This document shows, in pieces, positions 1-4,642 of a DNA stretch of 21,066 nucleotides; positions within the stretch are counted from its first letter, which is position 1, and every line of letters starts with the position of its first letter. The DNA lies in IMG/VR virus record IMGVR_UViG_3300035703_000447, positions 1 through 21,066 of that record; one strand, given 5' to 3'. The notes beneath the pieces were generated by a model. That model made no database searches and was not told the DNA's origin. It was given only the letters and a program-made list of their open reading frames with translations. Position numbers and translations under genes: made by a program. The DNA comes from a virus.

Positions 1-624
1 TTCCACATCTAATAGATGTGTTACCAAATTGGCCAATATGTTTTTTTTGAACGTGCTGGGCTTTTTATCTTTAAATGCGGCACTGTATGCATCTCTCCAG
101 TTTTGAAAAACTGGGTCTGCCATCTTAAACCATTCAATAGCAAGTTTACTATCCCGCTTAAAATAAAAAAAACTGTTGTACAATTTTGGTAAGTTGTACT
201 CTTGTTCTATCTCAAAGCTGTGAAACTTATTGGTATGATAATTTCTATAGGTACGGGCATTGGATGGAATTGCAACGTCGTAGTCCGCAAATGTATCCCA
301 AAGTAATCCACAATCAACTTTGTTAAAAATAGTGTCATAGTCTACATATATTGTTTCTTTGAACGGGGAACAGTGCAGCATTTGCCAAAAATTTGCACCA
401 TGAAACCCGTCCTTGTGTGCAGTATTACCAAACGGCAATTCTGTAATATAATCAAATGCATGTAAATATTTCTTAGGAATGTTATCAGTGGCGTTTTTAT
501 CCACCACCAAACAAACCTCCGCAGCGGGGTCAGACTGTTTAATACTTAGTGCAAGTGCATAACTGTATTTTACCTTGTCAAGATCTGTGTTGATTCCCAG
601 TGTTAAAAATCCGCGCTCTGACAT
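1..624 (-). CDS. Glycosyltransferase-like protein, GT-A type with DxD motif (second tandem copy), 3' end cut by window edge
   Basis: The frame is open from the ATG at 624 to the window edge, giving 208 codons with no stop, so the C-terminus is missing. The start overlaps the stop of the upstream gene (TAATG) and has an AAGG ribosome site six bases upstream. The protein begins MSERGFLTLGINTDLDKVKY. Around residues 88-100 it has SPFKETIYVDYDTIF, a hydrophobic strand ending in D95-Y-D97. That pattern is typical of the metal/nucleotide-sugar-binding DxD of GT-A fold enzymes such as GT8. Later segments (IPSNARTYRNY, KLYNSFFYFKRDS, FQNWRDAY) match the neighbouring 298-aa protein by eye, so the two are paralogues. 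I recall similar proteins in marine T4-like phages, usually annotated as glycosyltransferase or hypothetical. Donor and acceptor cannot be told from the sequence. A non-catalytic nucleotide-sugar-binding role is also possible. Confidence 0.75.
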   Translation of the reverse strand, partial: MSERGFLTLGINTDLDKVKYSYALALSIKQSDPAAEVCLVVDKNATDNIPKKYLHAFDYITELPFGNTAHKDGFHGANFWQMLHCSPFKETIYVDYDTIFNKVDCGLLWDTFADYDVAIPSNARTYRNYHTNKFHSFEIEQEYNLPKLYNSFFYFKRDSKLAIEWFKMADPVFQNWRDAYSAAFKDKKPSTFKKNILANLVTHLLDVE

Positions 625-1520
625 TACACACCTTTCATCATTTTAAATATAGTTTCAGTATGACGATCAAGTGAGCGTTTGTTCATCACGTGGATGTTGT
701 CTTTAACTATACGTGTTAGAATATTTTTCCACGGCTCTTTGCGATTGTGTGACAACAGTATCCAATCGTTGAGGCTTTTGATTTCCACTACATCATCTTT
801 TTGATCCATGTTGATTAATGGAACGCCGGCAAAATCGTGAAGATAATTGTTGTTGTTGAACCCGTTCAGGATATGAGCTGCAATACTTACACAGAAGTCT
901 GTTCTAAACAATCCCGGGGGAAACTGGTACAACAAGTGATAGTAATCCCAATTGTCTTTAACATGTTCCCATAAATCGAAGAATATTTTACTTTCTTGAC
1001 TTTTATCAAAATAAACCACAGTACTCCACCAATGGTGTATACCTGCTTCATTTAGCGTTTGTTCGTTTAGATAAGGTAACTGATGTTCTAAATATCTTGC
1101 ATTACGATGCAAGCTAACAGGAATATCAGTTTCGAATATATAATCATAGAAATTGTTCTGTATAAAATAGTCAGTGTCTATTAACAATGTTTTTTCAAAA
1201 GGACTTAACGAAAAAATATCATCTTTGTTTTTGTTGTTGAACTGTGCGTTAAATTCAGTCCATGGACTATCAAAATGTTTTCGACTATTACTAGCATGAA
1301 CTATATCATGCACTACCACTGTATCAAAGCAAGCTGCGTGAAGTTCAGTGCTTATACTTTCTTTAAGCCAAGCATAAGACCCAGTGTCAGTTACTAGACA
1401 AGTGGTATTGTTCTTCATGTTTTGTTTAACATAGTGCGCAGCAAAGTGTGCGTATTTTATGTAATCAAGTTGATTGTTATTGTATGCAAACATGCACACA
1501 CCGCGTTCTTCCTCACTCAT
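624..1520 (-). CDS. Glycosyltransferase-like protein, GT-A type with DxD motif (first tandem copy), 298 aa
   Basis: I chose the ATG at 1520 because it overlaps the stop of the 115-aa gene as TAATG, the same coupling used elsewhere in this string. The reading frame extends two codons further to a TTG at 1526, which is a less likely start. The protein begins MSEEERGVCMFAYNNNQLDY. It carries SPFEKTLLIDTDYFIQNN, with D115-T-D117 as the likely DxD of a GT-A nucleotide-sugar transferase. The middle region (SLHRNARYLEHQLPYL, HWWSTVVYFDKS, VKDNWDYYHLLY) lines up by eye with the truncated neighbour downstream, including the shared NAR, a Y/S-x-x-x-YF strand and an NW motif. About 300 aa is plausible for a small phage glycosyltransferase. 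It ends at 624 overlapping the next start. Late co-transcription with virion genes suggests modification of virion or host-surface glycans, but this is inference. Fold assignment is moderately secure; catalytic activity is not. Confidence 0.75.
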   Translation of the reverse strand: MSEEERGVCMFAYNNNQLDYIKYAHFAAHYVKQNMKNNTTCLVTDTGSYAWLKESISTELHAACFDTVVVHDIVHASNSRKHFDSPWTEFNAQFNNKNKDDIFSLSPFEKTLLIDTDYFIQNNFYDYIFETDIPVSLHRNARYLEHQLPYLNEQTLNEAGIHHWWSTVVYFDKSQESKIFFDLWEHVKDNWDYYHLLYQFPPGLFRTDFCVSIAAHILNGFNNNNYLHDFAGVPLINMDQKDDVVEIKSLNDWILLSHNRKEPWKNILTRIVKDNIHVMNKRSLDRHTETIFKMMKGV

Positions 1521-1867: not shown

Positions 1868-1899
1868 ATGAGTTTCTCCTATTATATACTAATATAATG

Positions 1900-1907
1900 T
1901 ATTTATA
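1900..1907 (-). promoter_or_regulatory. T4-type late promoter box TATAAATA
   Basis: The minus strand reads GCTATATAAATACAT, a perfect TATAAATA. T4-like late promoters, recognised by gp55-type sigma factors, consist of this box at about -13 to -6. The start of transcription would be near 1894, leaving a leader of about 27 bases that includes the AGGAG of the 115-aa gene. The box lies in the longest intergenic gap of the window. It would drive the 115-aa gene and the two glycosyltransferase-like genes. Confidence 0.75.
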
Positions 1908-1923
1908 TAGCAGTTGTCAACCG

Positions 1924-3084
1924 TTAACTGTCGTCGCCTGTGTTAAAATTATCGCTGATTGACAATATAGGGTCAGGATTAACATCAAAAATCGCACTGT
2001 TTCGTTCAATAATGTCAGGCATAAGATAGCTACAGGTGGCTTCTATTTGTCCGTCTATTACTTGATCAAATGTGGTATCATCTAAAGTTAATTTAAATCT
2101 GACTGCTCTGCCACCATCGGCCCATTTGCCGTATAGCTTGAATCTTAGATTGGCATATGCACTGTATGATCCGTAGCTTGACGCATATACAGATGTGGAC
2201 GGTGGGCAATAATGGTACCCGGTGGTATAACCTGGCATGCTGTTTGAAACAAATCCAAATGCACCTGTTGGTTCAAAATTATAGCCGTATCCGTAGCTAC
2301 TAACTGTAACACCTGAACTAGTAAACAACAAACCCTCGTCGTCTGCACCTGCGTCACTTCCGTCGCCATAGTACTGTGTAAGATCATAAAATCCTTTGCC
2401 TTCACTTGTACCAGCAGTATAATTGTTGTTACTTTGTTGTAAATTGTTCCAGGTAAAACTAAGAACACCAATTTCGTTTATAACGTCACTCCAGTTATAA
2501 TATCCTGCTGTACAACCGCCTGACATTTCTAGCATAATACGCAACTGACCGCCGCTGTTAAAAAAGTATCTAGCATGACTGTAATCGTCAAACGTCCACA
2601 CATGCTCTGATGTAATTTTATTTGTCCAAGGAGTAGTTCTTTTATAAGGTCCACCCGAAACCGGAGTCGCAATTAGCGCACTTGCATTGATAGGATCAAT
2701 TGTTAAATGTGTATTGTTTGCTAGTATGGTGTTGTTTATTTTATTTTCGACAATGTTTAAATCTTCAGCTCTGACCGGAGTTCTGACTTCAACAGTGGTT
2801 CTATTAGTGGGTGCAGAAAACACAAGTATAGTATCTGTTAGATTACAGTGATCCACCATAACGTTGGTTCGATCCACTGTGTACTGTAATCTATCAGCAG
2901 TTATTAATTCTTCAACAGCAACAGTGTCTTCAATGTTGGGTGCGCCCCATCCAAACTTGTGATTTGTTTTGTCCAAGTCAGTAACAGCCGCGGTACTATA
3001 ATTGTCACCAAACACTTTGTTAACAAGTGTAGCAACACTATTATATTCGCTGGCTTGTGCTATTGCACCTGGGCTAACAGTCAT
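1924..3084 (-). CDS. Virion structural protein, probable tail-fibre or baseplate-associated, 386 aa
   Basis: The ATG at 3084 overlaps the stop of the 305-aa gene (TAATG), with AGGGA about eight bases upstream. The N-terminal 60 residues (SPGAIAQASEYNSVATLVNK and onward) look helical. Residues of roughly 60-150 alternate short strands with T/N-rich loops. A segment near residue 170, HARYFFNSGGQLRIMLEMSG, resembles a motif (FFN.GG..R) that I recall in structural proteins of marine T4-like phages. Roughly residues 225-315 are rich in Gly, Tyr and Ser (SSYGYGYNFEPTGAFG, ASSYGSYSAYANL), suggesting a beta-rich, loop-heavy surface domain. The C-terminal part (FKLTLDDTTFDQVIDGQ) looks like a beta-sandwich. 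No enzymatic motif is visible. It is the last gene of the virion-type trio and is followed by a 56-nt gap with a new promoter. The exact virion role is unknown. Confidence 0.7.
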   Translation of the reverse strand: MTVSPGAIAQASEYNSVATLVNKVFGDNYSTAAVTDLDKTNHKFGWGAPNIEDTVAVEELITADRLQYTVDRTNVMVDHCNLTDTILVFSAPTNRTTVEVRTPVRAEDLNIVENKINNTILANNTHLTIDPINASALIATPVSGGPYKRTTPWTNKITSEHVWTFDDYSHARYFFNSGGQLRIMLEMSGGCTAGYYNWSDVINEIGVLSFTWNNLQQSNNNYTAGTSEGKGFYDLTQYYGDGSDAGADDEGLLFTSSGVTVSSYGYGYNFEPTGAFGFVSNSMPGYTTGYHYCPPSTSVYASSYGSYSAYANLRFKLYGKWADGGRAVRFKLTLDDTTFDQVIDGQIEATCSYLMPDIIERNSAIFDVNPDPILSISDNFNTGDDS

Positions 3085-4001
3085 TACTTTGTCCCTACAA
3101 CTACTTCTATTAGACCAGCGCCGTCAACCTCTTTACTGGTGAGAGCTCTGCCAATAATTCGTCTATAATCCCCTAGTTCTGATGCAAATGCTGCACGAGC
3201 ATGACCTTCAATGCTGCTAGTTACCAGTCGTTGTCCTTTGTCTACTTTTCCTATCACCTTGCAAGGAACACGCCCAGCAAGTGCTACAAATGGATGAGTA
3301 GCGTCTGTTCCGGCGGCACTGTTCATTTCAAATCCCGGCGCAGTTGATACAATACCAAATACTTCCACACTAGCTTCTGCTTTTGAACTTGTAATTTCTT
3401 TTTCGCCGCCCAATATCACCACTGTGCCGGGCTCATATACATTGTCTGCTGCATATCGTTCTGCAAGGTCAGCGTATTCTGCGCTGGTGGCAATGCCTCT
3501 GAACTTGTAGTTGCTGGTGATGTTCATATTAACGCCAGCCTGGATCACAGGAAATTGGGTAGACAGTGCAGTAACTCCATCTTCGAGATATTCTGTTGGA
3601 TGTGGTGTCCACGCAACTGTGTCGTCTACTGTGATAGTTACAATTTTATCATCCACAATGTGTTCTATAGTGAAATGATATATGTTGAGAGTGTCAAGTC
3701 GTTTTCTAACTTCCATACGAGTTGTTCCAGCTGGACTACCGATGGGATACCAGCGTCCGTTGTCGTACAACATCAGATAGCTGTTGGCAGTATCATACCA
3801 CAACTGTCCTTCAGTTGGATTAACAGGCGCAGTTGTGTTGGCATGATGTTCTAAGAGCCTAAGAAAATTCTCATTTAATGATTCACCAAATCGATTGTAA
3901 TTCTTTCCTATCAGCACTAAGCTGGTACTAGTGTCAACTGTACCGTCATTAACTACTATAGGTGTTTTTCCGCTGGTCGCATAGTCTACTGTATATGGCA
4001 T
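3084..4001 (-). CDS. Tail-fibre-like structural protein, 305 aa
   Basis: The start ATG at 4001 has AGGA at 4012-4009, seven bases upstream. The N-terminal region, residues about 25-80, contains LVLIGKNYNRFGESLNENFL followed by TEGQLWYDTANSYLMLYD. I recall this module (GKN...GE.LNENF.RLLE..A......P..GQLWYD) in tail-fibre and structural proteins of T4-like cyanophages. The C-terminal 120 residues contain AEYADLAERYAADNVYEPGT, VVILGGEKEIT, VFGIVSTAPGFEMNSAAG and RRIIGRALTSKEVDGAGLIE. This is the recognisable domain (YADLAE.Y..D..YEPGTVV..GG..E.T) found near the ends of many marine phage fibre proteins. There it often precedes an S74 chaperone domain, but none is encoded here. The protein is short for a fibre and may be a tip, adaptor or short fibre. 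It ends overlapping the next gene by one base. Confidence 0.8.
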   Translation of the reverse strand: MPYTVDYATSGKTPIVVNDGTVDTSTSLVLIGKNYNRFGESLNENFLRLLEHHANTTAPVNPTEGQLWYDTANSYLMLYDNGRWYPIGSPAGTTRMEVRKRLDTLNIYHFTIEHIVDDKIVTITVDDTVAWTPHPTEYLEDGVTALSTQFPVIQAGVNMNITSNYKFRGIATSAEYADLAERYAADNVYEPGTVVILGGEKEITSSKAEASVEVFGIVSTAPGFEMNSAAGTDATHPFVALAGRVPCKVIGKVDKGQRLVTSSIEGHARAAFASELGDYRRIIGRALTSKEVDGAGLIEVVVGTK

Positions 4002-4014
4002 ATGTTTATCCTAC

Positions 4015-4614
4015 TCATACATCGCTGTACGATGTTCTTATTCTTAATGTATAAATTATCTGTATTTTTCGATTAGCACTTTTTTGCACTGGATGAAAAA
4101 TAACATGAGTTAGCAGGTCGTTGTTTGCAGTGTACAATGCTAATTCGTCAAATACGTAAGCATCGTTCATATTTGCACTGGTATCATACGTGTCCTGCCC
4201 CACCGGGATGTTGTAATCAAGTGTGCATGTCACTACAACATCACTATACAAGTTACCATTGGTGTGTACTACTTCTGTACCCCTGTCTGCTGACCCTGAG
4301 ACAATTTCGTCTACGCTTTGATTATAGGTTTCGTTATACAATGCACCAGTGGTAACGTTTGTATTAGTTGCTTTGTAGGTTACTGCACCTAATCCATCTA
4401 TAATAGTGCCACCGTTACCAAATCGCATGTCTGCAATTTCATAGGTTCCAGTAACACCAGATTCATTGGCCAACAGTTTAGCAATTGCAATACTCATATT
4501 TTCAAAATTAATAGCATTACGTCGGCGTACTAACACTTCGCCGTTATCAGGATCCCATATAGTAATATGACCTTCTATACCTATCAAGGGTTTTTCAATT
4601 TTTGACAAACTCAT
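4015..4614 (-). CDS. Baseplate or tail-fibre-associated structural protein, 199 aa
   Basis: This is the first gene after the late promoter box at 4635-4642. The ATG at 4614 has only a modest ribosome site (GAGAG, about seven bases upstream). The protein starts MSLSKIEKPLIGIEGHITIW, followed by DPDNGEVLVRRRNAINFENM and IAIAKLLAN, then ADMRFGNGGTIIDGLGAVTY. I recall small marine T4-like structural proteins with this layout (G...I.DP..GEVL...NAI..ENMS.A.A..LA....... ..FGNGGT). The rest is beta-strand rich and ends with DELALYTANNDLLTHVIFHP and a basic SANRKIQIIYTLRIRTS. No catalytic motif or signal peptide is visible. The position between the giant wedge-region protein and the 305-aa fibre-like protein supports a structural role, possibly connecting fibre to baseplate. 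Function inferred from context. Confidence 0.7.
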   Translation of the reverse strand: MSLSKIEKPLIGIEGHITIWDPDNGEVLVRRRNAINFENMSIAIAKLLANESGVTGTYEIADMRFGNGGTIIDGLGAVTYKATNTNVTTGALYNETYNQSVDEIVSGSADRGTEVVHTNGNLYSDVVVTCTLDYNIPVGQDTYDTSANMNDAYVFDELALYTANNDLLTHVIFHPVQKSANRKIQIIYTLRIRTSYSDV

Positions 4615-4634: not shown

Positions 4635-4642
4635 TATTTATA
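4635..4642 (-). promoter_or_regulatory. T4-type late promoter box TATAAATA overlapping the giant gene's stop codon
   Basis: The minus strand reads CGATATAAATACTA, a perfect TATAAATA whose TAA at 4640-4638 is also the stop codon of the 3698-aa gene. The predicted start of transcription is near 4629, giving a leader of about 15 bases to the 199-aa gene. Together with the box at 1900-1907 it shares the ten-base core ATATAAATAC. It would drive the 199-, 305- and 386-aa genes. Confidence 0.75.

Follow-up and report, generated by a model that had tools for sequence, protein, structure and literature searches.

The window, the whole 21,066-base virus record analysed here, carries on its minus strand a series of genes that begins with baseplate genes and extends as far as the left edge (Table 1). 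The last two of these, A and B, had been described in the initial annotation as tandem glycosyltransferase-like paralogues beside virion genes, and they do lie within a tail and baseplate gene cluster. T4-like signs are present in the form of gp25 and wedge homologues, the wedge subunit being closest to those of the jumbo phages Atu_ph07, SCTP-2, Phosso and PA5oct. Contigs with relatives of the locus reach up to 222–285 kb, and a gp21-like protease (PF03420) is present in 5/5 long relatives.

In the record of PA5oct, the genes at the positions of c2, c3 and c7 carry an ESI-MS/MS note. Pieces of c2 are 47% identical to PA5oct gp359, gp360 occupies the position of c3, and residues 150–210 of c3, which sits between c2 and the promoter, find a 34% partial match in PA5oct-group phages. 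PA5oct also has an 11.6 kb gene, annotated as a virion protein, at the same place as the 3698 aa frame of the window.

Table 1 Features of the window, in the order of the minus strand
Feature	Position	Strand	Remark
303 aa baseplate-region gene		-	First in the window's minus-strand series
gp25-like gene, 121 aa		-	After the 303 aa gene
Wedge subunit, 1180 aa		-	phrog_10646, E 3e-266
Giant gene, 3698 aa	4638-15734	-	Single reading frame, between wedge subunit and c7
TATAAATA upstream of c7	4635..4642	-	Late-type octamer without sigma-70-like match
c7, 199 aa, structural-region protein	4015..4614	-	phrog_11259, E 1e-59
c2, 305 aa, virion-type protein, intramolecular-chaperone-like (Peptidase_G2) region	3084..4001	-	Pfam E 0.003, under the curated cut-off
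c3, 386 aa, putative tail-tip/virion protein, candidate acceptor	1924..3084	-	Partial match in PA5oct-group phages
YGYGY stretch in c3	2281..2295	-	At the site of the relatives' long (YG)n tracts
Sigma-70-like promoter TTGACA-N18-TATATT	1891..1920	-	Sole match in the window, 0.21 expected; equivalent in 59/68 relatives
T4-late-like octamer TATAAATA	1900..1907	-	Inside the sigma-70 spacer; ATAAATA in 51/68 relatives
c4, 115 aa	1520..1867	-	Opens the transcription unit holding A and B; no family assigned
Gene A, 298 aa, GT8-like GT-A glycosyltransferase (predicted)	624..1520	-	DxD = D115-T-D117
Gene B, N-terminal 208 aa of about 290	1..624	-	Truncated at the left edge; paralogous to A, with DYD as its motif

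Pairing and distribution of A and B

A and B are direct neighbours whose stop and start codons overlap in TAATG, in agreement with the coupling proposed earlier, and the c4/A junction of the window also reads TAATG. The span 624-1520 given earlier for the pair is that of A; B (1-624) lies outside it. The reported sequence likenesses were all recovered: the proteins start with MSEEERG (A) and MSERG (B), both carry an SPF-type D.D motif (SPFEKTLLIDTD in A, SPFKETIYVDYD in B), and BLASTP and profile comparison agree on the alignment of the NAR, YF and NW blocks. By BLASTP the two are 23% identical over 223 columns (E 6e-7), and a profile-profile comparison with 32 members each gives 96.7% (E 3.9e-10, 197 columns).

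The full second copy that was to be looked for exists in the relatives, at about 275–308 aa. Further copies were not found: 9/9 long records have a single copy of each gene. The c8 protein, which has a DADN stretch, was considered as a third transferase and rejected: compared with A it scores 0.4%, and the PDB returned nothing relevant for it.

Scans of viral_contigs returned 39 loci via A, 27 via B and, via the profile of A, 136 relatives, of which the nearest 80 were used; a scan of genome_contigs returned one locus. A and B stand side by side in 163/164 loci or sequences with either gene, and the remaining one begins inside B. Among the 68 distinct loci (neither identical to nor contained in another, so that close relatives remain), the series c7-c2-c3-c4-A-B-c5-c8 is complete in 51 and the other 17 are without end genes only; in all 68, c4 precedes A and the genes overlap or nearly touch. 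Gene order was examined in 21 representatives, the window included, and tandem radical-SAM genes follow c8 in most of them. In one of the relatives, L088, two of three such genes pass the twitch radical SAM cut-off of 170 bits (306.7 and 367.6), and the third scores 60.8. The order tail-tip c3, promoter, c4, A, B, c5, c8 and radical-SAM genes is thus fixed in many T4-like, often jumbo, viral contigs.

To look at the locus from its neighbours, we scanned for c3 (best 80 of at least 439 relatives) and c4 (best 80 of at least 551). Among these nearest relatives with room downstream, A follows in 98/98 distinct c3 loci and 141/141 c4 loci, and B in 82/98 and 123/141, respectively. Of the 18 c4 loci that have no B, 17 have a protein of 232–239 aa in its slot and the remaining one, L214, a transferase-like protein of 266 aa, indicating that B is replaceable. 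The possibility that the 232–239 aa protein is a degenerate B was discarded as unsupported (comparison 1.5%).

Among 50,697 isolate records we found no convincing relative of A or B. Searching the isolate collection by tblastn gave no match for A and two weak staphylococcal matches for B (E 0.1–0.2), and a distant A gave one weak match (E 0.5). In the same collection c4 has no homologue at E ≤ 1 and c8 has none, and PA5oct has no match to A or B.

Two neighbouring observations are of separate interest. The c8 protein (L088 10705-11682, plus strand, and relatives; about 326 aa) has a mean column identity of 73% across lineages, more than A, B, c3, c4 or c5, occurs in two or three tandem copies in loci without B, and matches no known family. 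In the isolate phage Atu_ph07 (NC_042013.1, L165; 9119-10009, minus strand, and neighbours), a protein that resembles the precursor of a modified peptide, gp170, is encoded behind tail genes; its C-terminal tail, CHSSCHASCHNSRSRR, is rich in Cys and His, and radical-SAM genes (gp168 and gp171) lie on either side of it.

Predicted fold and the DxD motif

Searched singly against Pfam, PHROGs, NCBIfam and PDB sequences, A and B gave nothing usable. No Pfam or PHROG glycosyltransferase model fits either protein, no NCBIfam model fits A or B of L088, and when 32 members of each family were compared with Pfam, Glyco_transf_8 was not among the matches. At the profile level, A found nothing relevant in the PDB, and B matched glycogenin-1 weakly by sequence (E 0.013) with the DxD places aligned.

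We report the fold from AlphaFold2 models of A (pLDDT 86.7, pTM 0.87, poor at residues 84–94) and, because the window copy of B is cut, of the full-length B relative L018 (pLDDT 89.0, pTM 0.89). Foldseek against the PDB placed glycogenin at the top for both (E 6e-8 for A, 7e-7 for B). A aligns with the glycogenin structure over 225 of its 298 residues (Z 15.4, rmsd 3.9), and the B relative with GlyE over 227/292 (Z 16.4, rmsd 3.9) and with LARGE1 over 238 (Z 16.2, rmsd 4.1). LgtC is also among the GT8-type matches, for which Z is 15–16 overall. The best viral match of the A model is an uncultured Caudovirales protein (TM 0.84, 28% identity). In these predicted models, solved GT-A enzymes match most of the chain of A and of the B relative, so the GT-A fold expected in the initial annotation has come through the fold prediction that could have spoken against it.

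A and B are thus predicted to be GT8-type GT-A glycosyltransferase-like proteins. They resemble glycogenin, LgtC, GlyE and the N-terminal domain of LARGE1 in predicted fold, and glycogenin also in the profile place of the DxD, but differ from these enzymes in sequence (about 8–16% identity in structural alignments, and the Pfam GT8 model without a match) and in forming a two-protein unit, one member of which often has no DxD. GT8 enzymes carry a C-terminal HxxGxxKPW motif; A has instead a shorter HNRKEPW-like stretch with variable letters, and its H258 is a histidine in 75/106 aligned rows only.

The DxD metal site of GT8 enzymes is present in 122/122 distinct A sequences, whereas in B it depends on the lineage (63/107). 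The window belongs to a clade in which both proteins keep it. The contrast between DTD in A and DYD in B had been taken as strong divergence and as a hint of different donors or acceptors; this does not hold, because the middle position is free to vary within either family and so is uninformative about donors. The 44 B sequences without the motif have no D.D nearby, and other residues have gone with it: the C-terminal histidine is found in 59/59 aligned sequences with DxD and 5/44 without, and K194 falls from 0.90 to 0.02. The same DxD-less proteins still keep G5, W80, P87, W109 and K167 at 0.89–1.00. What is new here is this asymmetry: A keeps its DxD throughout, and B has often lost the motif and other presumed donor-site residues while its fold residues and the gene itself are retained.

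In a first tree of A (68 rows), all DxD-less B sequences fall on one side of a branch with SH-aLRT 99. In the larger tree (122 rows) the DxD state of B changes four times; at least two of these changes fall on supported branches, and the placement of several long branches is unsure. The distances of A and B are correlated over 66 pairs (r 0.896, reached by 0/999 permutations; L006 and L013, with a partial B, were left out). The B/A distance ratio is 1.50 in the DxD-less group (15 rows) and 1.17 in the other (51 rows); B has drifted faster relative to A where the DxD was lost. This pattern suggests an enzyme and a partner turning into a pseudoenzyme, and is by itself no proof of a complex.

The promoter ahead of c4

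The genes had been assigned a late promoter of their own. The octamer is indeed conserved in position among the relatives (Table 1), but it lies upstream of c4 and not directly before A: in none of the 68 loci do the 150 bases before A or B contain either promoter pattern. Two octamers occur in the window against 2.16 expected, which is chance level. The second lies upstream of c7, as it does in 22/61 relatives, none with a sigma-70-like match (probably an undercount, as starts of longest ORFs were used).

In the gap between c3 and c4, the relatives carry TTGAC[A/C/T]-N16-18-TATANT in 59/68 cases and TTGAC in 67; the same 859,636 bases hold 89 occurrences of the full pattern in all on one strand. 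In the alignment of relatives ATAAATA falls within the sigma-70-like spacer. From its sequence, the c4-A-B unit looks readable by the host polymerase. The nesting of the octamer in the spacer, conserved in position, raises the possibility of a dual early/late promoter. The earlier argument that late expression points to a virion protein or a host sugar as the target loses its footing, since the octamer ahead of c4 overlaps a conserved sigma-70-like promoter: being virion-directed does not follow from being late.

Acceptor candidates and alternative readings

Our leading reading, which we hold tentatively, is that A and B form one heteromeric transferase, with A catalytic, that modifies a tail-tip or baseplate protein. 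A and B would be co-translated paralogous subunits of a single nucleotide-sugar-dependent glycosyltransferase, in which A would carry the metal and donor site and do the chemistry. B would have begun as a second transferase, its site still intact-looking in the clade of the window and that of a pseudo-transferase elsewhere; as it decays and yet stays linked to A, its role is probably structural or substrate-presenting. Transcription would start at the promoter ahead of c4, which looks usable early by the host polymerase and perhaps late too. The most likely substrate of the complex would be a tail-tip or baseplate protein encoded just upstream, c3, c2 or c7. Consistent with this, A and B always lie behind tail genes, and it is the PA5oct counterparts of these that bear the mass-spectrometry note. 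Against it stand the lack of fit to any family glycosyltransferase model, the variability of H258 in A and the replaceability of B. No nucleotide-sugar gene or acceptor was identified.

Two linked transferase proteins also make up the GtfA/GtfB O-GlcNAc transferase of serine-rich repeat adhesins, whose fold class differs from that of A and B. There, according to the part of the literature considered, one protein is the transferase and the other a chaperone for the acceptor adhesin (PMC6973325); the likeness extends to a repeat-bearing virion protein near A and B. The GtfA/GtfB Pfam domains, DUF1975 included, are absent from the matches of the 32 A and 32 B members. Judged by its sequences, B would fit the part of an inactive member in the 44/107 cases without DxD and not in the other 63, and unlike that system both copies keep the motif in the clade of the window.

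Among the possible acceptors, c3 is the boldest candidate, with a host surface glycan as its main rival. Tracts of at least three Tyr-small-residue units, with up to ten YG, occur in c3 of 58/66 distinct near relatives (c3 under 200 aa, 2/68, left out) against 0.4 expected from shuffles, and in 0/588 other ORFs of at least 200 aa. The part of c3 in which they lie is variable, although the rest of the protein can be aligned. Their codons are mixed (TAT 248, TAC 119 and each of the four GGN), which favours selection at the protein level over simple slippage. The c3 of the window, with YGYGY only, is one of the 8/66 without such a tract, and the PA5oct protein at the c3 position has none. In L020, c3 is nearly doubled (736 aa) and a run of YSGG repeats precedes the YG tract.

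In the wider set of nearest relatives, the tract is present in 43/98 distinct c3 loci, all with A, and absent from 55/98; since these also have A, the idea that A requires the tract was dropped. Sorted by B, the tract occurs in 43/82 loci with the gene and 0/16 without it, and YGYGY in 47/59 with a DxD-bearing B, 2/43 with a DxD-less B and 0/18 with no B row. We do not take this as a link between the DxD of B and the tract, for just two independent pairs lie on supported branches, nothing beyond shared ancestry.

Glycogenin glucosylates a tyrosine, and nothing else in the vicinity is as unusual as the tract, which makes the tract a natural candidate target. The most specific version of the leading reading would have A, with a decaying pseudo-transferase B, add sugars to the tyrosines of Tyr-Gly (or Tyr-Ala/Val/Ser) tracts in c3, perhaps with the downstream radical-SAM enzymes, as a phage adhesin modification module; we regard this as a long shot.

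The strongest alternative, unlikely in our estimate though to be taken seriously, is that, early in infection, A and B act on a host surface glycan and so block superinfection or re-adsorption. A conserved sigma-70-like promoter permits early expression and fits host-surface modification equally well, and LgtC and other GT8 enzymes of cell-surface glycans are among the fold matches. This is also the published reading for pelagimyophages, T4-like marine phages that have, close to tail genes, both radical-SAM cassettes and GT8 genes, interpreted in the part of the source considered as modifying the host O-chain (PMC7029224). Compared by description, that cluster shares with ours GT8-type and radical-SAM genes beside tail genes, but it is a hypervariable island, whereas here the order of c3, c4 and A is fixed across distant lineages. 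The coupling of c4, A and B directly behind tail-tip genes also argues against a host target, as does the conservation of A (mean column identity 66%), which seems higher than expected of a protein tracking variable host sugars.

That each of A and B is an active enzyme in its own right, the two adding successive or different sugars, appears rather improbable. The DxD kept by both in the clade of the window, and with it the C-terminal histidine of B, would suit two enzymes; the retention of B beside A after donor-site loss would be left unexplained, and the loss of the motif in B alone suggests a single enzyme whose partner is drifting, which weakens the idea of two independent ones. Glycosylation of phage DNA bases in the manner of the T4 glucosyltransferases, suggested by the T4-like character of these phages (gp25, wedge and gp21-like protease), is very improbable, given that the alpha- and beta-glucosyltransferases of T4 have the GT-B fold, whereas GT-A/GT8 structures are the top matches of both models and align with most of their length, that no base-modification gene was seen beside A and B, and that the pair is placed with tail genes.

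Phage-encoded glycosylation of the virion is documented in few systems. In mycobacteriophages Che8 and Rita, phage-encoded transferases are reported to act on the capsid (PMC11256854, considered in part); by description, the likeness to the leading reading lies in phage transferases with a virion acceptor, and the difference in capsid versus tail. The literature, covered partly through excerpts, yielded no paper describing the A-B module or uniting glycosyltransferase, radical SAM, tail fiber and jumbo phage. For the GT8 genes of T4-like phages from the sea, modification of the host O-chain has been put forward as an untested role, as far as the portion of that source considered goes (PMC7029224). 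Distant jumbo-phage-like contigs share the locus described here as a fixed module, in which one protein of the pair looks like an enzyme and the other like a pseudoenzyme, and a candidate acceptor is encoded two genes away; this makes the question directly testable.
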